Shown: positions 20,260-36,168 of the stretch, one piece after another
Position numbering within the stretch: the first letter of the stretch is position 1
Layout: each line of letters starts with the position of its first letter
Source of the DNA: Balneolia bacterium
Lineage (GTDB): Bacteria > Bacteroidota > Rhodothermia > Balneolales > Cyclonatronaceae
Assembly (NCBI GenBank): GCA_022565795.1
Contig: JAIUMA010000026.1
Location: 1 to 42,730 of the forward strand
DNA length: 42,730 nucleotides
Direction of reading: 5' to 3'
Position numbers and translations under genes: made by a program
The notes under the pieces: model-generated
What the model was told of the DNA's origin: nothing
What the model saw: only the letters and a program-made list of their open reading frames with translations
The model's database searches: none

Positions 20260-21687
20260 TTAGCTATTTGTATTAGGCTCGTTAAGCTCTTCAGTTTCTT
20301 TAACCGGCTCGTTGCCGTCTTCATCATAATAGTGCGGGTCGGCCTGTGGCATCACCATTTTCACCTCGGCAATCGCAATCATAGGAAGGAAGCGGAGGAA
20401 CAATAGGAAATTCGTAAAGAAAAGGCCGAATGTACCTACATAAGTAAGAACGTCCACCCACGTTGGCGAGTAGTACGCCCATGAACCAGGAAGGAAATCC
20501 TGCGCAAGAGATGTTACCGTAATTACAAATCGTTCGAACCACATCCCGATATTTACTACAATAGACAGTATAAAGGATACGGTGATACTTCTCCTCATTT
20601 TCCTGAACCAGAAAAAGTTCGGAGCAATTACGTTACACGACATCATTATCCAATAGGCCCATGCATAAGGTCCGGTAGCTCTGTTCACGAAAGCAAATTT
20701 CTCATATTCAACCCCGCTGTACCAGGCAATGAAGAACTCCATGATGTAGGCAAAACCTACCATCCATCCGGTAACCAGAATAATGATATTCATTTTCTCA
20801 ATGTGGTCAATCGTCATGATATCCTGAAGCCCGTAAATCTTGCGGGCGATAATCATGAGCGTCATTACCATCGCAAAACCAGAGAAAATAGCTCCGGCTA
20901 CAAAGTAAGGCGGGAAAATGGTGGTGTGCCATCCCGGAATTATGGATACTGCAAAGTCAAAGGATACAATTGTGTGTACAGAAAGTACGAGCGGTGTGGC
21001 TAAACCGGCGAGAAGCATGTATGCTTTCTCGTAATTCTGCCACTGCCTGTTACCACCAGTCCAGCCCAGGGCGAATGCACCATAGAGCTTGGCGGCCAGC
21101 TTGCTTTTAACTCTGTCTCGCAGCGTTGCAAGGTCAGGAATAAGGCCAACGTACCAGAAAAGAAGGGATACGGTAAAGTAGGTTGATACAGCGAACACAT
21201 CCCAAAGCAGCGGGCTTTGGAAGTTTGGCCACATCTGCATCTGGTTTGGAAGCGGGAAAACCCAGTAGATTACCCAGATACGACCTACGTGTACGGCTGG
21301 AAAAATACCCGCACACATTACCGCAAAAATGGTCATTGCTTCCGCAAATCGGTTAATGGCGGTACGCCACCCCTGTCGAAACAGAAAAAGAACCGCGGAA
21401 ATAAGCGTGCCTGCGTGACCGATACCAACCCACCATACAAAGTTAATAATCGCCCAGCCCCATGCTACGGTATTATTCAGGCCCCAGACTCCGGTACCTT
21501 CCCAGATCAGGTAGCCAAGCATCAGAAACAAAAGCCCCATCAACAGGTTGGATATACCGAATGCGATATACCACCAAAATGGAGTTGGCTTTTCAACAAT
21601 ATCAGCAACCAATGCCGTGATACTGCTGAAAGTATGATTGCCCTTTACCAGTGGGGCTTCTTTGACGTAACCGCTATTACTGCTCAT
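20260..21687 (-). CDS. actC: Alternative complex III subunit ActC (NrfD/PsrC-like quinol-binding subunit)
   Basis: The quinol-oxidising membrane subunit, 475 residues and about ten TM helices, of the NrfD/PsrC family. Recognisable segments are [71 protein letters not shown] and [15 protein letters not shown] near the N-terminal half, followed by [35 protein letters not shown]. The GHAGTLIS histidine and the SFD aspartate are typical of the quinol site and a possible proton path. The C-terminal tail is acidic and Asn-rich. It follows actB by 43 bases. Confidence 0.95.
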
Positions 21688-21730
21688 CTATAACTGTTCG
21701 TTTACTTAATTGTTCTAATTAGGCAGGGCG

Positions 21731-24739
<3,009 letters not shown>

Positions 24740-24780
24740 TCCGAAAATTCTCGTACTAAGTTTTGTAGTTAACTAAAACG

Positions 24781-25428
24781 CTACCTGTGGCAGGCGTTAC
24801 AGTAAATGGGTGGGTTGATGTTCTTCTTGGAGATCACCATTCTGGCGAATTCGAAGTGATCTTCTTCCGGTTCCCACGCCATGTTGGTTACTTCTTCTAC
24901 CGGACGCAAATAAGGCTCAGGGTTGTTATGGCAATCCAGACACCAACCCATGCTCAACGGTTCTGATTGCATTACAACTTCCATACGATCTACACGACCG
25001 TGACAAGTCGCACAGCCCACGCCAACGTTTACGTGTGCGCTGTGGTTGAAGTAAGCAAATCCCGGAAGCTTGTGAATATGAACCCATTCGACAGGATTAC
25101 CTGTTTCCCATGCTTCATACAACGGCTCGAGCATCGGGCTGTCGGTGGCAATCTGAGAGTGGCAGGTCATACAGGTTTCCGTTGAAGGAATTCCTGCATT
25201 GGCCGATTCCATAACTGAACCGTGGCAATACTGGCAATCGATGCCTAATTCACCTGCATGAAGTCTGTGGCTGTAGTCAATAGGTTGCGATGGCGCGTAA
25301 CCAACCTGGGTATATTTTGGTGATCCCCAGTACCAAAAGCCAAATATTACGGCGAGTAGTAGTAAGTTAACAGACAGCAAAAGCTTTTTGGGAACTTTAT
25401 TTGCCCACTTAGGAAAGAGTTGAGCCAT
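24781..25428 (-). CDS. actA: Alternative complex III subunit ActA (pentahaem cytochrome c)
   Basis: A membrane-anchored multihaem cytochrome of 215 residues with one N-terminal TM helix (about 15-35). Five CxxCH motifs are visible: C65-H69 (CQYCH), C86-H90 (CMTCH), C139-H143 (CATCH), C163-H167 (CLDCH) and C210-H214 (CNACH). The last lies two residues from the C-terminus. It relays electrons from the ActB iron-sulphur clusters toward ActE. It is the first gene of the operon, with more than 400 bases of non-coding DNA upstream. Confidence 0.96.
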   Translation of the reverse strand: MAQLFPKWANKVPKKLLLSVNLLLLAVIFGFWYWGSPKYTQVGYAPSQPIDYSHRLHAGELGIDCQYCHGSVMESANAGIPSTETCMTCHSQIATDSPMLEPLYEAWETGNPVEWVHIHKLPGFAYFNHSAHVNVGVGCATCHGRVDRMEVVMQSEPLSMGWCLDCHNNPEPYLRPVEEVTNMAWEPEEDHFEFARMVISKKNINPPIYCNACHR

Positions 25429-25850: not shown

Positions 25851-28800
25851 TTAGTTCGGCGACTGCGGCACGGGCACTTCTGCGGTATCTTCTTTAAAGC
25901 GCTGCGCAAATGATTTTGCACGCTCCATAACCGATGCTACGGTTACATATACAATCGGGATAAGAAACAGCGTGATGAATGTTGAAGCCGTAAGTCCTCC
26001 GATTACCACGCGGGCAAGCGAAGCCTGGAGTTCAGCACCGGCACCGATGCCAAATGCAAGCGGCATAAGGGCTAGAATTGTCGTAAATGTAGTGAGCAAA
26101 ATAGGTCTCAAGCGAAGTCTTCCCGCCTCAACTACCGCTTTACGCACCGGCAGATTTTGTTCGCGACGCATCAAATTGATGTAGTCGACAAGTACAATGG
26201 CGTTATTCACCACTATACCAATGAGCATAATTACCCCCATCAGGCTTTGCAGGTTTATCGTTGTTCCCGTTAGCATAAGGGTTGGAACCACCCCTACAAT
26301 TGCCACAGGCACTGAAAACATTACAATTAGAGGATCAACAAACCGCTCAAACTGTGCTGCCATCACCATATATATGAGCAAAAGCGCCATGATGATAGCC
26401 AGGGTAAAATCGCGCTGGGCACGCTGCTGTTCCTCATATTCACCACCGAAGTAGATGGAGAAGCCGTCAGGTAGTGGTATCTGACTGAGCTCAGAGCGGA
26501 TTCTGTCTACCGCCGTGCCAAGGGCAACGCCTGACTCAAGATTTGCCGTAATGTAGGTTACACGCTGGCCGTTCACCCTGTTGATGTTGGTCGGACCGCG
26601 TTCACTAACCTGCTCAACCACGCTGGAAATTGGAAGTATTTCGTTTCCGGCCGTACGAACATTAATGTTATCAATATCCTGGATACTAACTCTATCTTCG
26701 GGTCTGAGGCGAACCGTTATCGGGATTTCCTCACCGTCCTGACGAAACATCCCGGCACGGCGTCCTCCGACATTGGCTTGTATTGCAGTTCCGATATCCT
26801 GAGCGCTGATACCCAGTCTGGACATTCGCTCCCGGTCGAATCTAATGTTCTGCTCGGGACGCCCCTGTCGAACACCTGCCCAAACATCGGTTACGCCCTC
26901 AATTTCTTCAATGCGATCGCGCATCATCATCGCAAGCTCTTCAGCTGTTTCGAGGTTGTAACCCCGAAGCTGCATGGATACTGACTCTCCGTCGTCGTTA
27001 CCGCCACTGCTAAAGACCCGGCGAAGGACCCAAAGACCAGTTCGTGCTGAAACGCGAATGTCCGCACCAGGAATTGTACCCTGCAGTCTTCTTCTGATTT
27101 CATCTGCCAGCTCGTTTGCAGAAGTGGTGCGATCACCAAAATCAACAAGGGTGAGGTCGACACGGGCGTTGCCGTTTCGTATATCTCTGGTGAGATATCG
27201 CACATCCTGCATAGGCACCACCTCGTCTATAATGGCATCAAGCTCGGCCACGTACTGATAAACCACGGCGATGTTCGTACCCCCATCCATGCTCATGTTG
27301 ATGCGGATTTCATCGGCCTCGGTTTCAGGAGCAAGTTCAAACGGGATAGTTGGCAGCACGTAAAAAGATAGCGCAACCAGGCCGGCAGTTACAATTACTA
27401 TATAAGCTCGGTATTTAAGCGCGTGCTGCACGCCGTTTGCATACTTATCCTCTACTTTTGTTACAAACCTTTGCCATTTTGTACGCTTCTCCGGATCAGG
27501 GTTATCCGGCTCCATTTTAAGGAAACGGCTCGAGAGCATCGGCACAAGGGTGAGTGCCACAATGAGCGAGCACAACAGGGAAAAAACAACTACGAGCGCA
27601 AGTTCCTGAAACATGATCCCGGTGATCGTCGTCATGAATACAACCGGAAGGAAAATTACTGAAGTCGTTAACGTTGATGCAATGATAGCACCGGCAACCT
27701 GTTTGGTTCCGATTAATGCGCTTTCCCTCTTCTCTTTTCCGTTCTGCCGCTGCCGTACGATATTCTCAAGTACAACAATCGCATTATCGACAATCAGACC
27801 GACCCCGAGGGCAAGACCGCCAAAACTCATCTGATTAAGAGTAAGACCGCCAAAGTACAAGAGTCCGAATGTAGCAATGATTGATATCGGAATCGTAATT
27901 CCGATAATCATGGTAGCCGATCCGTTGCGCAGAAAAGAGAACAGAACAATGATCGCGAGTATACCGCCCCAAATGGCTGAGTTACGCACGTTGTCTATAG
28001 ACTGGTTGATGAAATCGCTCTGATCGGTTATCACCTTGAGCTGAAGATCGGTGCGCTCCAAATTAATTCGGCGAACTTCATCGTGTATACTGGCCGCAAC
28101 GGCTACCGTGTTGGCACCGGTTTGTTTCCGCAATCCCATTCTGATCGTCGGACGATCATCAATTTCGACATATCGGCCAATTTCTTCGTAACCAAACGTT
28201 ACGATGGATACATCACCTACACGAATCGGCACTCCCTCAACAGTGGTGACAATTGTATTCTGCACCTCGTCTACCGTCTGGTATTCACCTAGCGTACGAA
28301 CATACAGATCGCTCAGCCCCTCGCGAATGTTACCTCCCGGCAGATTCACATTTTCACGGCCGATTGCATTGACCACGTCAGCTGCCGTCAACCCTGATGA
28401 GATAAGTCTTTCACGAATAAGGTCTACGTGGATTTCACGATATACGCCGCCCCATACATCAATAGCTCCTACTCCGGGAATCTGCTCAAAACGCTTGCCA
28501 ATTTCACGCTCCAGAATGCGGGTTAACTCTGCCAGTTCGCGCTCAGACTGCGCTCCGACTACAACAATAGGTGAGTCGTTGGGATCGAACTTCCAGATCC
28601 GGGGAGCGTCAACTTCTGGAGGGAGGCTTCTGCGAACGCGGTCGAGTGCTGCGCGTACGTCGTTAGTTGCCTCATCGAGGTTGGTGCCTTGCGCAAAGTG
28701 AAGCGTAACACGACTGTTGCCTTCGCTTGAGTTCGAGTTCACCCGGTCTACGTTAGGCACACCGGCCACAGCATTTTCAATCTGGTCGGTGATGATGAGC

Positions 28801-28979
28801 TCCATTTCTTCCGGGCCCACGTTATCGTAGTTCACAGCGACTGTTAGCTGCGGATATTCAATAGGTGGAAGCAAATCTACCGGCAGCATCCTGAAGCCGA
28901 TGATGCCGAGGGTGATTACAATGAGGTATATCATTGTAGTCGCTATCGGCCGGGAGATAGATTTAGCAGATATGGACAT
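25851..28979 (-). CDS. RND-family efflux transporter, inner-membrane pump (AcrB/HAE1-like)
   Basis: A proton-driven tripartite efflux pump subunit of 1042 residues, the usual size. It starts with the family pattern SRPIATTMIYLIVITLGIIGFRMLPVDLLPPIEYP. Two large periplasmic loops follow the first and seventh TM helices. The TM4 proton-relay motif is GGLALGVGLIVDNAIVVLENIV, and a second conserved motif is MVMAAQFERFVDPLIVMFSVPVAIVGV. The presence of the TM4 aspartate and amphiphile-type sequence suggests drug or lipid export rather than heavy metals. It follows the adaptor by 41 bases. No outer-membrane channel gene lies next to it. Substrate unknown. Confidence 0.95.
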   Translation of the reverse strand: MSISAKSISRPIATTMIYLIVITLGIIGFRMLPVDLLPPIEYPQLTVAVNYDNVGPEEMELIITDQIENAVAGVPNVDRVNSNSSEGNSRVTLHFAQGTNLDEATNDVRAALDRVRRSLPPEVDAPRIWKFDPNDSPIVVVGAQSERELAELTRILEREIGKRFEQIPGVGAIDVWGGVYREIHVDLIRERLISSGLTAADVVNAIGRENVNLPGGNIREGLSDLYVRTLGEYQTVDEVQNTIVTTVEGVPIRVGDVSIVTFGYEEIGRYVEIDDRPTIRMGLRKQTGANTVAVAASIHDEVRRINLERTDLQLKVITDQSDFINQSIDNVRNSAIWGGILAIIVLFSFLRNGSATMIIGITIPISIIATFGLLYFGGLTLNQMSFGGLALGVGLIVDNAIVVLENIVRQRQNGKEKRESALIGTKQVAGAIIASTLTTSVIFLPVVFMTTITGIMFQELALVVVFSLLCSLIVALTLVPMLSSRFLKMEPDNPDPEKRTKWQRFVTKVEDKYANGVQHALKYRAYIVIVTAGLVALSFYVLPTIPFELAPETEADEIRINMSMDGGTNIAVVYQYVAELDAIIDEVVPMQDVRYLTRDIRNGNARVDLTLVDFGDRTTSANELADEIRRRLQGTIPGADIRVSARTGLWVLRRVFSSGGNDDGESVSMQLRGYNLETAEELAMMMRDRIEEIEGVTDVWAGVRQGRPEQNIRFDRERMSRLGISAQDIGTAIQANVGGRRAGMFRQDGEEIPITVRLRPEDRVSIQDIDNINVRTAGNEILPISSVVEQVSERGPTNINRVNGQRVTYITANLESGVALGTAVDRIRSELSQIPLPDGFSIYFGGEYEEQQRAQRDFTLAIIMALLLIYMVMAAQFERFVDPLIVMFSVPVAIVGVVPTLMLTGTTINLQSLMGVIMLIGIVVNNAIVLVDYINLMRREQNLPVRKAVVEAGRLRLRPILLTTFTTILALMPLAFGIGAGAELQASLARVVIGGLTASTFITLFLIPIVYVTVASVMERAKSFAQRFKEDTAEVPVPQSPN

Positions 28980-29020: not shown

Positions 29021-30310
29021 TCAGGCGTCGGGTGTATTCCCGTTTTGTTCTGCCAGCTTTTCGCGAATCATATCCAGCAGGTCACGGCTCTGAAGCTGCT
29101 GGAGCTCAAGGATTCGATCCCATGTAATGACGCGAACGCGGGCTTCTTCCCTTCCGGATGCCAATAGATTCTGACCAATCGTTACAACCAGATCGCCCGC
29201 CTCAATACCTGTGATACCCGAAACTTCACGACCCTGTGCCACTATGGTAACAGGCACAAAATCCACGCCGGTCGGACCAATAATCGAACTTCTGGTTTCC
29301 TCTCCAAGATCAATCTCTGAAAGTCCGCTTCTGCTGGCAACGTATACGCCTCTGCGGCCATCATTCGGATTGGTGAATAGCGAGTTATTTGGAATTAGTA
29401 CAGCCTGATCGCTTTCACCATAGAGCACATCAACAGTTACAAACATTCCCGCCCGAAGCAATCCGTCGGGATTATCGAGCTCGATTTCGGCCTCTGTGGA
29501 GTTCGTTACGGGGTTCAGAAACGGAGAAATTCGGGTGAGCTCGGTCTGAATAACTTCACCACCAAACGCATTGGAACTTATGTTTACAGTCTGTCCCGGA
29601 GCGATGTAGGACAGCATTCTCTCAGTAAGCGAAATTCTAATACTCATCCGGCGCGTATCGCCCACTTCAAACAATCGTGTGTTGGGAGTTACCAGTTGGC
29701 CGACCTCAACGGCTCTTGCACCGACAAAACCATCAATCGGCGATTTTATTACAGTATTATTAAGCTCATTTTTGCGCTCTTCAACAACGGACGCCGCCTG
29801 GCTGCGCTGCGCTTCGGCAAGTTCGAGTCCCGCTCTGGCTGATTCTACTTCCGCGCGAAGCTGCTCTACTTCAAGTTCACTCTCAAGATTACGTACACTC
29901 AGGGTTTCGATTCGGTTCAGTCTGGCTTCCAGACGCTGAACGTTCGCTTCAGCCTGCCGCACCTGGGCATCAGAAATGCGCAAACCGGCTTCGGCCTGTA
30001 TGAGGCGCTCACGGGCCTCGTTATCACGAAGTTTAATCAGCGGCTGCCCCTCAGTAACCTGCTCGCCGCTGCTGACCAATATTTCTCGAATCGGTGACGA
30101 TATCTCAGGAAATACATCAGACTGGTTTCTGGCGCGAACTACGCCGGTAAGTCTTTCTTCCAGGGGTAGTGAGCCGATAACTGTTTCGATAACTTCAACG
30201 GTGGGCGTGTACCCTCCACGTCCACGCTCATTTTCCGACGAATCGTCGCTGCTACAGGAGAAAACAACGACGGAAAAAGAGAGTAATAAAATGAGTGTTA
30301 TGTTTTTCAC
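29021..30310 (-). CDS. RND efflux periplasmic adaptor (membrane fusion lipoprotein)
   Basis: The HlyD/AcrA-type adaptor that links the RND pump to an outer-membrane channel. I start it at the GTG ending at 30310, because MKNITLILLLSFSVVVFSC then forms a clean lipoprotein signal with C19. A TTG at 30328 would add six residues ahead of it. Domains in order: beta-hairpin/lipoyl half (VFPEISSPIREILVSSGEQVTEGQPLIKL), a long coiled-coil hairpin (about 95-170), the second lipoyl half (VIKSPIDGFVGARAVEVGQLVTPNTRLFEV), a beta-barrel and a membrane-proximal domain (VLIPNNSLF onward). The length of 429 is slightly over the usual 370-400 because of an acidic linker and C-terminal tail. First gene of the two-gene efflux operon. 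Confidence 0.93.
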   Translation of the reverse strand: MKNITLILLLSFSVVVFSCSSDDSSENERGRGGYTPTVEVIETVIGSLPLEERLTGVVRARNQSDVFPEISSPIREILVSSGEQVTEGQPLIKLRDNEARERLIQAEAGLRISDAQVRQAEANVQRLEARLNRIETLSVRNLESELEVEQLRAEVESARAGLELAEAQRSQAASVVEERKNELNNTVIKSPIDGFVGARAVEVGQLVTPNTRLFEVGDTRRMSIRISLTERMLSYIAPGQTVNISSNAFGGEVIQTELTRISPFLNPVTNSTEAEIELDNPDGLLRAGMFVTVDVLYGESDQAVLIPNNSLFTNPNDGRRGVYVASRSGLSEIDLGEETRSSIIGPTGVDFVPVTIVAQGREVSGITGIEAGDLVVTIGQNLLASGREEARVRVITWDRILELQQLQSRDLLDMIREKLAEQNGNTPDA

Positions 30311-32434: not shown

Positions 32435-33967
32435 CTACTTCCCTTTGTAAGCAGGCAGGCGAATGATAAACTCTGCTCCGCCGCCCATACGGTCCCGAAC
32501 GCTAATAGAACCGCTGTGCTTTTGCACAACTCCACGGGTTATGGCAAGCCCGATTCCCAGGCCGAAGTCGCCACCGGCCGTTTTTGTTGTGAAGCTGGAT
32601 TCAAAAATCTTGCTTTTCAGATTATCCGGAACGCCGGGTCCGTCGTCGGCAATCGTTACCCAAACCTCGCCATCGGAGGACGTTCCGCAGTTGATAAACA
32701 GCCTGCCCTTGTCTTCCATCGCATCGCAGGAGTTTATGATGATATTCGTCCAGACCTGATTCAGCTCACCAACGTAGCACTTCACCATGGGTATTTCGGG
32801 CAAATTAAGCTCTACGTTTATATCTTTAAGCCTGTTGCCGATGATCATCAATGTTTCCTGAATGCCAAGACGTATATCGGCCACCTCAGGCTCGGCCCTT
32901 GAATCGCGGCTATAGCTTTTGAGGCTTTTCACAAGATGCCCTATTCTACCGGTGGACAATTGTATACTTGCCAGAAACACGCCCGCCTTGTGGCTGTCGA
33001 GCAGCAATCGTAGTGATTTCGGCTTATCATCCGATTTGGCGTACGAGGCGACCTTCTCAAGCAGCTCATCGCCTAATTCCGACATATCCCGAATAACCGA
33101 GCGACTGAGATGTGAATACCTTTCCTGAAGCTGCTTCATTTTTTCGCGCTGCTGATCCGTGCTTCTAATTTCGCGGCTCATACCGGCTTCAAGGAAGTGT
33201 CTCACCAAGCCCGTATCTGGGAGAGCACCGGCCTGCTCGGTCATATCGGGCAGTACGCGCATCAAGTAGTCGACTGAGCGCAGCAGTGCAGACGCAGGAT
33301 TGTTAATTTCATGCGCAAGTCCGGCCGTAAGCTCACCCAAAGTAGCCATCTTCTCCTGATTGATAAGCAGGTTCCGGGTTTTTTCAAGCTCATTAATGGT
33401 ATCCCGAAGGTTGTTTCGCTCCTCTTCCAGCTGTCTTGAAAGCTGCGCAATTTCCATGTGCAGCGTAACCACACGGCGGTAGCGTTCAGATAGATTCGAA
33501 AAAATAAGACCCTGAATTACACGGCTTATTTCAGGATAGTTTTCCTGAATCTGGTCGAGTGAAGACTGTCCCACCCTAAGAACTTCCACATCCGAACTGG
33601 CTCGTGCCGTTGTAAACACCCGCTCTCCCGTCTGAAACGACAGCAACCCCATAAAATCGCCCGGTCCCTGAAGATCGATGGCGATTTCAAATTCATCCGT
33701 TTGCTTCGACTGTTTTACATAGCCATCAAGAATCACAAAAAGCCTCTTGTTTTCCTGACCCTCCCTCAGGATAATTTCACCCTGCTTGTAGGTTTGATAA
33801 TGGCTGCTAAGCAATTCGGAACCAGGCAGCAGTTCTTTAATATTCTTTACGAACGCATTTTTATCGAGTCGGCGACCGGAGCTTCCTATGCCGATAGTGT
33901 TTGAGCGCTTCTGAACCTTTTCACGGGATTCCTTCAGATAGCGCATGTATTTGTCTTCAGATGACAT
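32435..33967 (-). CDS. Sensor histidine kinase with N-terminal CRP-like domain
   Basis: A soluble 510-residue kinase with no TM segment. An N-terminal CRP/cNMP-binding fold (about 45-160: GEIILREGQENKRLFVILDGYVKQ, then GPGDFMGLLSFQTGERVFTTARASSDVEVL) leads through a coiled coil (about 165-205) to the HisKA-like domain. The phospho-acceptor is H219 (GLAHEINNPAS). The ATPase domain has the N box (VWTNIIINSCDAMED), the D box (DDGPGVPDN) and GLGIGLAI. The CRP-like pocket seems to lack the Glu and Arg that hold cyclic nucleotide in CRP, so another signal or a protein partner is likely. The gene is third in an operon with a DASS transporter and a stand-alone receiver, which is the probable phosphorylation partner. 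Confidence 0.93.
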   Translation of the reverse strand: MSSEDKYMRYLKESREKVQKRSNTIGIGSSGRRLDKNAFVKNIKELLPGSELLSSHYQTYKQGEIILREGQENKRLFVILDGYVKQSKQTDEFEIAIDLQGPGDFMGLLSFQTGERVFTTARASSDVEVLRVGQSSLDQIQENYPEISRVIQGLIFSNLSERYRRVVTLHMEIAQLSRQLEEERNNLRDTINELEKTRNLLINQEKMATLGELTAGLAHEINNPASALLRSVDYLMRVLPDMTEQAGALPDTGLVRHFLEAGMSREIRSTDQQREKMKQLQERYSHLSRSVIRDMSELGDELLEKVASYAKSDDKPKSLRLLLDSHKAGVFLASIQLSTGRIGHLVKSLKSYSRDSRAEPEVADIRLGIQETLMIIGNRLKDINVELNLPEIPMVKCYVGELNQVWTNIIINSCDAMEDKGRLFINCGTSSDGEVWVTIADDGPGVPDNLKSKIFESSFTTKTAGGDFGLGIGLAITRGVVQKHSGSISVRDRMGGGAEFIIRLPAYKGK

Positions 33968-34011
33968 ATCAGGCTGATGCGTTTGTGGAGTTGATCATCG
34001 CAGATACCAGA

Positions 34012-34509
34012 CTAGTAGTCTGAAATCGTCCCTCTGGCGCGGATGGCTTCCTGTATTCGTTTGGCGTCCAGCGCCCCCATGTAGGGAAGCAGGTCTTTTT
34101 CATTTTCAATAACGAAAGTGGTGAGCTCGTCGCGCGCCACGCTCACCAGGTTATCCGGATCCCATGGCTTCGCGATATAGCGGTTGAGCCGTGCATGGTT
34201 CACGGCCTCGACGGTTGCATCGAGACCGGCCTGTCCGGTTAGCAGCACCTTACGGGTACGCTCAGTAAACTCGTCGCCCTGCATCTCTATCATCAGCTCA
34301 ACGCCCTTGTCGCCGGGCATCACGTGATCGCAAATGGCAAGGCCAACTTTATCACCCTGTTCTTTTATTTCTTTTATGATATTACGGGCTTCATCGGCCG
34401 AAACGGCCATTTCAATAGGAAAAACATCTTCGAGAGCGGATAAATCGCGGACTATTACGTCCAGGACTTCAGGCTCGTCTTCTACGCACAAAATATAAAT
34501 GGTTGACAT
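34012..34509 (-). CDS. Stand-alone response regulator receiver protein
   Basis: A 165-residue protein with one receiver domain. The acidic pocket is in ILCVEDEPEVLD (residues 7-18), the phosphorylation site is D61 (ICDHVMPGDKG), the switch threonine is in VLLTGQAG, and the conserved lysine is K114 (RYIAKPWDPDNL). After the domain comes only a short helical tail (about 125-165, FVIENEKDLLPYMGALDAKRIQEAIRARGTISDY). No DNA-binding or enzymatic output is visible, so it may work by binding another protein or as a phosphate carrier. It sits between the transporter gene (18 bases) and the kinase gene (44 bases), and should share their mRNA. Confidence 0.92.
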   Translation of the reverse strand: MSTIYILCVEDEPEVLDVIVRDLSALEDVFPIEMAVSADEARNIIKEIKEQGDKVGLAICDHVMPGDKGVELMIEMQGDEFTERTRKVLLTGQAGLDATVEAVNHARLNRYIAKPWDPDNLVSVARDELTTFVIENEKDLLPYMGALDAKRIQEAIRARGTISDY

Positions 34510-34527
34510 AACTCCGGTCTCCTGTGA

Positions 34528-36168
34528 TTAAAGTAAAACTGCCGGCCAGAACAGAACGGCATAAGCAAGTGCAACAAAAAGGCCTATTATTCCAATAATA
34601 CTACCAATTTTAACCATGTCGGCTGTCTTAATATAGCCTGTACTCATGGCAATAGCATTAGGCGGTGTGGAAATCGGCAGCAGCATCGCCATGTTACATG
34701 CCATACCAATCATTACGGCAGATATAACGAGGCTGAAGCCATCACCGGCTATTCCTGATGTACCCATGCTCACGGCCAGCGGAATTAGAAGGGTCGCAGT
34801 AACGGTATTTGAAAGGAAGTTGGAAAGCATAAGCGCTACAAAGCCAAACACCAGGAGCAGCACGATTTGCGGGAACACATCCCAGCTTATGCTTGATACC
34901 AGCCAAACGGCCAGTCCGGTATTCTCCATGGAGATACCCAGAGCTATACCACCGGCTACCAGCCAGAGCACTTCCCAGGGCAGACTTCTGATATCTTCTT
35001 TCTCGAGTACGCTGCTTACCGTAAGACCCATTATCGGCAGGAAAGCAACCATACCGCTAGGTATTCCGTGCTGCGCCTCGGTAATCCAGAGCACAACCGT
35101 AAGTGCAAAAACGAAGTACATAATGATGGCTTTACCGGACTTATCGAATGCACTGTCGAGCTCCAGTTTGAAACGTGTAATCGTGGGCGGATACATCACC
35201 CTCATCAATCCCCAGGCTGAAAGAAGCATAACAAGCACCAGTGGAACCGCGATGAGCATCCATGTACCGAAGGCGATGGATTCTCCCTGTGCGTTTAGCG
35301 CAGAAATAACAATTGCGTTGGGTGGTGTACCAATTGGAGTGGCCATCCCGCCAAGGTTTGCCGCAATCGGTATACTCAGCGCCAGCATGATGCGGAACTT
35401 ATCTTCCTTGCTAACCTGCAGCGCAATCGGGATGGCTACGGTCATCATCATGGCTGTTGTGGCCGTGTTGCTCATAAATGCGGATAATACCGCCGTAACC
35501 AACATCAAACCAAGAATAATAAACATGGGTTTTTCACCAAACGGCTTCAGCAGCACGTTCGTGAGGTTCTTATCGAGGTTGTATTTCACAGCCGCCGCGG
35601 CGAGCATAAAGCCACCAAGAAACAGGATGATAATCGGGCTGGCCAACGTGCCCATAAATACGGTGTAAGATGCCGGCGTATATCCCGTAAGAATGTGGTT
35701 TACGTCCGACACAATCTCTGTGCCAGACGAAATCTCATCTGACCTCACAAAAACGAAGCCATTCTCCGTTTCGACCACTTCAATTTGAATCTCCTCAGAA
35801 GAACGAGCGCCCGTTCTAAGAAATACCGTGTTGTTCTGCAGGGCAGAGTCCGGTATGCGCCAAACCTCTTCCTGCGCAGTTTGCTCAACGGTGTATGACG
35901 GCAGCTCTGCATTCTGATAAAGCGGGCCCTGCGTACTCAAAAGTACAATTTGCAGGAAAATAACCAGCATCGAGGTAGCATAAATCGGGATGGGCTCAAG
36001 CATCCAGAAGGCTGCGGCAACCAGAAAGATGCCCAGGGTGAGATGACCCGCAAAAGACAGGCCGTCGAAATGTACAAAGAGAGGAATACAAAAGCCAATT
36101 ATACCAAGAGTGAGCCCGACTGCCGTTTTGGTCCAGGCGGGAAAACGCTGTTTTTCTTTAGTTCTCAT
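34528..36168 (-). CDS. DASS/SLC13-family Na+-coupled anion transporter with a large periplasmic insert
   Basis: A membrane transporter of 546 residues, about 85 longer than typical DASS proteins. Family motifs are the SNT signature in LSAFMSNTATTAMMMTVAIPIAL, the second SNT-type motif in LSNFLSNTVTATLLIPLAVSM, and the late helix ending MLLPISTPPNAIAMSTGYI with the paired GTPPNA earlier. They mark the Na+/dicarboxylate sites. The insert (about residues 79-168) follows three N-terminal helices, so it is predicted in the periplasm. It reads like the C-terminal domain of RND adaptors (VWRIPDSALQNNTVFL... then IQIEVVETENGFVFV and SGTEIVSD). First gene of the operon with the receiver and kinase. 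Substrate is probably a dicarboxylate or sulphate. Confidence 0.9.
   Translation of the reverse strand: MRTKEKQRFPAWTKTAVGLTLGIIGFCIPLFVHFDGLSFAGHLTLGIFLVAAAFWMLEPIPIYATSMLVIFLQIVLLSTQGPLYQNAELPSYTVEQTAQEEVWRIPDSALQNNTVFLRTGARSSEEIQIEVVETENGFVFVRSDEISSGTEIVSDVNHILTGYTPASYTVFMGTLASPIIILFLGGFMLAAAAVKYNLDKNLTNVLLKPFGEKPMFIILGLMLVTAVLSAFMSNTATTAMMMTVAIPIALQVSKEDKFRIMLALSIPIAANLGGMATPIGTPPNAIVISALNAQGESIAFGTWMLIAVPLVLVMLLSAWGLMRVMYPPTITRFKLELDSAFDKSGKAIIMYFVFALTVVLWITEAQHGIPSGMVAFLPIMGLTVSSVLEKEDIRSLPWEVLWLVAGGIALGISMENTGLAVWLVSSISWDVFPQIVLLLVFGFVALMLSNFLSNTVTATLLIPLAVSMGTSGIAGDGFSLVISAVMIGMACNMAMLLPISTPPNAIAMSTGYIKTADMVKIGSIIGIIGLFVALAYAVLFWPAVLL

Follow-up and report, generated by a model that had tools for sequence, protein, structure and literature searches.

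According to a review, membrane-proximal domains (MPDs) occur exclusively in adaptors (PMC4446572). The locus described here raises the question of whether such a domain also resides within a secondary transporter and, if so, what it would do there. The locus lies in a contig of 42,730 nucleotides from a Balneolia bacterium (JAIUMA010000026.1; this whole stretch is hereafter called the window). A sequence-only reading of the window had noticed that a transporter of the DASS family (divalent anion:Na+ symporter, SLC13/INDY type) carries a segment resembling the MPD of RND adaptors between its third and fourth transmembrane helices (TM3 and TM4).

The transporter and the limits of its insert

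The gene at 34528-36168 on the minus strand encodes a protein of 546 amino acids. The score of this protein against TIGR00785 was 266.2 bits, above the cut-off of 198.6, which bears out the earlier assignment to the DASS family, and PF00939 and PF03600 were also matched. AlphaFold2 modelled the full protein with a pLDDT of 91.5 overall and approximately 95 in the insert. When the model was searched with Foldseek, VcINDY (5ul7) was matched with an E-value of 6.4e-21 and a TM-score of 0.80 by target, indicating an INDY fold. SNT motifs were located at residues 233-235 and 453-455, and TPPN motifs at residues 281-284 and 501-504. The SNT and TPPN motifs belong to the substrate and Na+ sites of DASS proteins. 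In an alignment of 44 DASS proteins, S233, N234, T235, S453 and T455 were invariant, N454 was nearly so, and the TPPN motifs were invariant or nearly so. We concluded from the TIGR00785 match, the Foldseek result and these motifs that the protein is a DASS transporter, and its sequence predicts Na+-coupled anion transport. The DASS Na+/dicarboxylate symporter of Vibrio cholerae, VcINDY (5ul7, 4f35), shares the DASS fold, and its SNT and PPN positions align with those of the protein studied here. Unlike this protein, VcINDY lacks a periplasmic domain in the TM3-TM4 loop.

In the AlphaFold2 model, TM3 of the scaffold domain comprises residues 62-77 (35938-35985, minus strand) and TM4 residues 178-195 (35584-35637, minus strand). 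By the DASS topology, TM3 runs from the cytoplasm to the periplasm and TM4 returns to the cytoplasm (PMC7553777). The sequence-only reading had placed approximately 90 residues foreign to the DASS fold between these helices, at 35665-35934 on the minus strand. The coordinates were right (residues 79-168 of the 546-residue reading frame), the three adaptor-like motifs were present as quoted, and a foreign domain does lie there, but its size had been overestimated. The gap between TM3 and TM4 is approximately 96 residues in the window's protein versus 24 in insert-free orthologues; in the orthologue alignment, the distance from L77 to T174 is 93-97 residues in insert-bearing proteins and 21-24 in insert-free proteins. 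Since the insert-free loop already contains 21-24 residues and the net gain is 72 residues, the inserted domain proper comprises approximately residues 89-160 (35689-35904, minus strand), and the remainder of the 90 residues is native loop. The sequences LLSxQGxLF and YxPxSYT, which flank the insert, are well conserved among the orthologues.

An MPD consists of an N-terminal strand and a C-terminal part that provides a strand with a helical turn, a meander and a hairpin (PMC4446572). DSSP assigned strands to residues 91-93, 102-106, 114-118, 124-128, 130-135, 138-142 and 151-153 of the AlphaFold2 model and a helical turn to residues 107-109, in an otherwise all-beta domain. The order of these elements (N-terminal strand, strand with helical turn, meander, hairpin) is that of the published MPD description (PMC4446572). 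The modelled insert thus resembles an entire MPD: its N-terminal strand continues immediately into the C-terminal part, and it has no barrel, lipoyl or hairpin domain. Because the MPD is its sole adaptor domain, the protein is not a periplasmic adaptor protein (PAP/MFP).

Sequence comparison of the insert with adaptors

TIGR01730 (RND_mfp) matched 19 of 33 inserts scanned alone (best E = 1.6e-6) and 12 of 44 full-length DASS proteins. The window's own insert, scanned alone, matched neither Pfam nor TIGR01730, and single inserts matched no adaptor model of Pfam-A. The adaptor family signal of this insert therefore stems from its relatives and from profiles. When aligned with full-length Balneolales adaptors using hhalign, the insert matched the C-terminal MPD with a score of 39.2 (P = 7e-6); the best score among 100 column shuffles was 21.6, and other DASS segments of similar size scored 8-17 against adaptors. 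The insert profile also aligned to the MPD of the RND periplasmic adaptor encoded at 29021-30310 on the minus strand (TIGR01730, 167 bits; columns 296-352 of the adaptor alignment), with which the sequence-only reading had compared the segment. Against a second adaptor set, the score was 71.8 over 57 columns (shuffled maximum 19.3), with a P value of 5e-11 that is optimistic because the set was picked by its match to the insert profile. This set held the nearest non-DASS sequence relatives of the insert, namely TIGR01730 adaptors of other Rhodothermia orders (L142-L154). Unlike the lone domain of the insert, these are full-length adaptors.

When 244 genomes of the class were searched with the insert profile, 34 DASS inserts were found, followed by 28 other places with E-values of 1.3e-7 to 0.01, where approximately 2.4 were expected by chance. 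Twenty of the 28 were checked. RND adaptors accounted for 19, four of them confirmed using NCBIfam, and the single non-adaptor had the weakest E-value. The matches in RND adaptors lay at or near the C-terminus, where the MPD is located. The window's own genome, searched with the insert profile alone, yielded no adaptor at E-values up to 10; the nearest adaptor relatives thus reside in other genomes.

The top ranks of a profile search of the PDB were occupied by de novo TIM barrels and Pizza proteins, and the adaptors 6vej and 4l8j ranked lower. We set aside a kinship of the insert with the DeNovoTIM and Pizza proteins because their scores sum identical repeats, each of which alone had an E-value above 1. 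By adding identical repeats, such designed proteins outrank true adaptors, and this is a trap in PDB sequence searches. As a separate observation, the genome that contains the window has an RND adaptor match (G000:C22:25588-26553; L062) with in-frame TAG and TAA codons, possibly a pseudogene or a frameshift.

Structural comparison of the insert with adaptors

The insert was also modelled on its own and compared with known structures using VIA-align. All of the best 20 matches were adaptors (Z-scores 10.0-6.2), and the Z-score then fell to 4.3 in the first match with an unrelated protein. The matches included CusB (10.0), BesA (9.2), TMexC (8.7), ZneB (8.6), AcrA (8.5), the SilB MPD (8.0), TriA (7.9), MexA (7.5) and MacA (7.1), and the matched ranges spanned the adaptors from the N-terminal strand to the C-terminal part (e.g. 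residues 45..296 of BesA). The insert shares fold, element order, sequence signature and predicted compartment with the MPDs of RND/MacB-type adaptors (CusB 3ne5, BesA 4kku, AcrA 5ng5, MexA 6iok, TriA 6vej, SilB 5a4g). It differs in standing alone within a transporter, without barrel, lipoyl or hairpin domain and without a second protein chain.

A generic small beta-roll might merely resemble an MPD by convergence. Small beta folds do recur, the N-terminal barrels of F1-ATPase also matched the insert in VIA-align (Z approximately 3.6), and a Foldseek search with the insert alone gave weak E-values (0.04 and up), as expected for a beta-roll of 75 residues. However, the sequence profiles single out adaptors and their MPD in both directions, and a clear structural gap separates the adaptors from all other matches. 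We therefore disfavour convergence and consider it highly improbable. The likeness to the adaptor MPD, which the sequence-only reading had drawn from a few motifs, is borne out consistently by the profiles, the search of 244 genomes and the structural comparison, and the AlphaFold2 model predicts an ordered insert.

Predicted position of the insert

The scaffold domain of DASS proteins consists of TM1-4 and TM7-9 (PMC7553777). In LaINDY, a DASS exchanger of Lactobacillus acidophilus (6wtw), the segment joining TM3 to TM4 is extended by an insertion, which projects into the periplasm close to the dimer interface (PMC7553777). A periplasmic rather than a cytoplasmic placement of the segment studied here, as had been proposed, is supported by its predicted topology, by the fit of the protein to VcINDY and by the loop of LaINDY. 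By prediction and homology, the insert would be located in the TM3-TM4 loop near the dimer axis, on the scaffold domain, which is immobile.

Because LaINDY has its extrusion in the same loop, on the same side of the membrane and in the vicinity of the dimer interface (PMC7553777), the insert might be regarded as the extrusion already described. In a profile alignment, however, the LaINDY chain before TM4 is longer than that of VcINDY by only approximately 20 residues (94 vs 72, at nearly the same profile column), which is too few for the domain of 72 net residues found here, and the nearest orthologues outside the order lack any insert. An identity of the two insertions is thus extremely improbable. 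An insertion at the TM3-TM4 site is known, whereas one consisting of an adaptor MPD is not. LaINDY has been described as an exchanger, and the protein at 34528-36168 keeps cotransporter-type motifs.

Distribution and evolution of the insert

We searched 59 related genomes for orthologues of the transporter (the Balneolales families were coded f1-f5). The insert was present in 33 aligned orthologues belonging to f1, f2, f3 and f5, and the hosts of the insert-bearing transporter were soda-lake and related bacteria. The f4 orthologues and one f5 genome (L051) possess the same transporter without the insert. Orthologues from other orders of the class (41-46% identical) also lack it, so that the insert-free state is likely ancestral and the insert gained. 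In a phylum-wide search of 394 genomes, no insert-bearing DASS protein was found outside Balneolales, and one adaptor was found. The range of the insert among DASS proteins, thus mapped within one phylum, comprises four of the five Balneolales families. Seven close relatives were found on genome contigs, mostly of Balneolales/Balneolia MAGs. A relative whose genome is complete (G005) encodes a protein of 84% identity. When the insert columns were excluded, the tree of the transporters implied two changes, and a single origin was not rejected (AU p = 0.128). The insert was probably captured once within the order Balneolales. Recent foreign DNA as its source was ruled out because the GC content of the insert equals that of the whole gene.

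The dN/dS of the insert was mostly 0.08-0.3, indicating purifying selection, and its core positions were invariant or near-invariant. The evolutionary rate of the insert is several-fold higher than that of the membrane part of the protein, as expected for a loosely constrained surface domain. Taken together, an adaptor likeness above that of shuffled alignments, the presence of the insert in 33 orthologues and purifying selection point to more than chance.

These data also bear on a passive role, in which the insert would be an adaptor-derived rigid periplasmic cap or dimer stabiliser, of use for example in saline, alkaline habitats, with neither a partner nor regulation. This explanation agrees with the faster evolution of the insert and with the insert-free f4 and single f5 genomes, in which the transporter is otherwise intact (f4 also keeps the gene cassette described below). 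On the other hand, the insert has been kept in four families under purifying selection with a conserved core, and a mere spacer need not retain a full MPD. We regard a passive cap as a real possibility that falls somewhat short of probable.

Two irregularities were observed among the orthologues. The DASS gene of L031 (G010:C238:45248-46679) is broken inside the insert region: reading frames matching residues 16-143 and 198-544 lie in different frames with a TAA between them, which we attribute to a pseudogene or an assembly error. The DASS proteins of L036, L037 and L038, from MAG contigs titled Bacteroidales/Bacteroidetes, fell inside the Balneolales f1 clade and probably represent mislabelled bins or transfer.

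Neighbouring genes

The DASS gene is the first of a same-strand cassette at 32435-36168. It is followed by a response regulator gene at 34012-34509 (minus strand; PF00072, E = 1.7e-13), whose product has only a receiver domain by Pfam, and by a histidine kinase gene at 32435-33967 (minus strand; PF02518, E = 5.1e-20). The kinase has an N-terminal cyclic-nucleotide-binding domain (PF00027, E = 2.8e-14) and is soluble as read from its domain content. In Balneolales genomes with enough flanking sequence, the order of DASS, response regulator and kinase genes is kept in insert-bearing and insert-free members alike; the link of the transporter with the kinase and regulator therefore does not require the insert. 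In another order, a distant homologue of the kinase was found near a DASS gene (L163).

The cassette would accommodate a transceptor, in which the MPD reads a periplasmic ligand, an ion or the state of the transporter, and the DASS protein relays this to the adjacent kinase and response regulator. The conservation of the cassette across the order is compatible with this explanation, and the soluble nature of the kinase makes a membrane input plausible. Coupling of a transporter with a kinase is known in CbrA, where an SLC5 transporter domain is fused to a histidine kinase, so that a transporter is tied to a two-component system as in the cassette at 32435-36168 (PMC8871633). CbrA, however, belongs to another transporter family, is a fusion and not an operon, has no adaptor domain, and the signalling role of its transporter domain is disputed (PMC8871633). 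Further, the cassette is equally conserved without the insert, which could thus at most modify the signal. We consider a sensor of this kind unlikely.

The window also encodes the RND adaptor described above (29021-30310) and, near it, an RND permease (25851-28979), 4-8 kb from the DASS gene; in two congeners, an adaptor is located approximately 10 kb away. Together with the contacts that MPDs make with RND porter domains (PMC6975555), this arrangement would suit a docking function, in which the MPD, imitating an adaptor, would bind to an RND pump or take a place in a ring of adaptors. However, no adaptor was found close to the DASS gene in the f3 and f5 genomes, and the insert lacks the domains with which such a ring is completed (barrel, lipoyl and hairpin). 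Since the synteny is confined to the genus, we rejected the adaptor neighbourhood as a sign of partnership, and docking to an efflux system appears quite improbable.

In another part of the window (approximately 20260-25428), genes resembling alternative complex III or a Qrc-type menaquinone reductase were observed. They encode a multihaem cytochrome, a molybdopterin-like/Fe-S fusion protein of 1002 amino acids and an NrfD/DsrP-like membrane subunit.

Possible roles of the insert and significance

On the evidence above, the insert is very probably a complete RND-type adaptor MPD at the periplasmic TM3-TM4 position. That it is, in addition, a periplasmic module of some adaptive value is likely. 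In the explanation that we propose, a Na+-coupled DASS transporter would have acquired an adaptor MPD, which came to lie in the periplasmic loop of the immobile scaffold. Tied covalently to the scaffold beside the moving transport domain, the MPD may act as a periplasmic regulatory or docking module. It could make contact with the transport domain, with the other protomer or with a partner in the periplasm, and these contacts might tune di-/tricarboxylate uptake or the report of the transporter to the kinase and response regulator cassette.

Mutations in the MPD of adaptors impair pumping. The MPD contacts the porter domains of the RND pump (PMC6975555) and has been proposed to sense the state of the transporter (PMC4446572). 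From these three properties we infer, by analogy, that the insert may have a regulatory or docking role. We put this forward tentatively and give a passive cap about the same probability. A more specific form, in which the MPD was internalised by an unrelated elevator transporter, keeps its old job in cis and feeds the co-encoded cassette, seems doubtful. From its periplasmic position, the MPD would then sense or set the conformation of the DASS dimer, or it would recruit a periplasmic partner.

The DASS transporter and the adaptor MPD are each known. No description of an MPD within a DASS transporter was found in the full texts of the open-access papers searched. An MPD built into a secondary (elevator) transporter breaks the rule of the review that this domain belongs to adaptors only. 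The insert-bearing protein is a natural cis-fusion with which the effect of an MPD on a transporter can be studied. Good structures exist for the DASS family, and the insert-free orthologues are ready controls. Further, the gene order points to a coupling of a DASS transporter with a two-component system in Balneolales, an order with many members from soda lakes.
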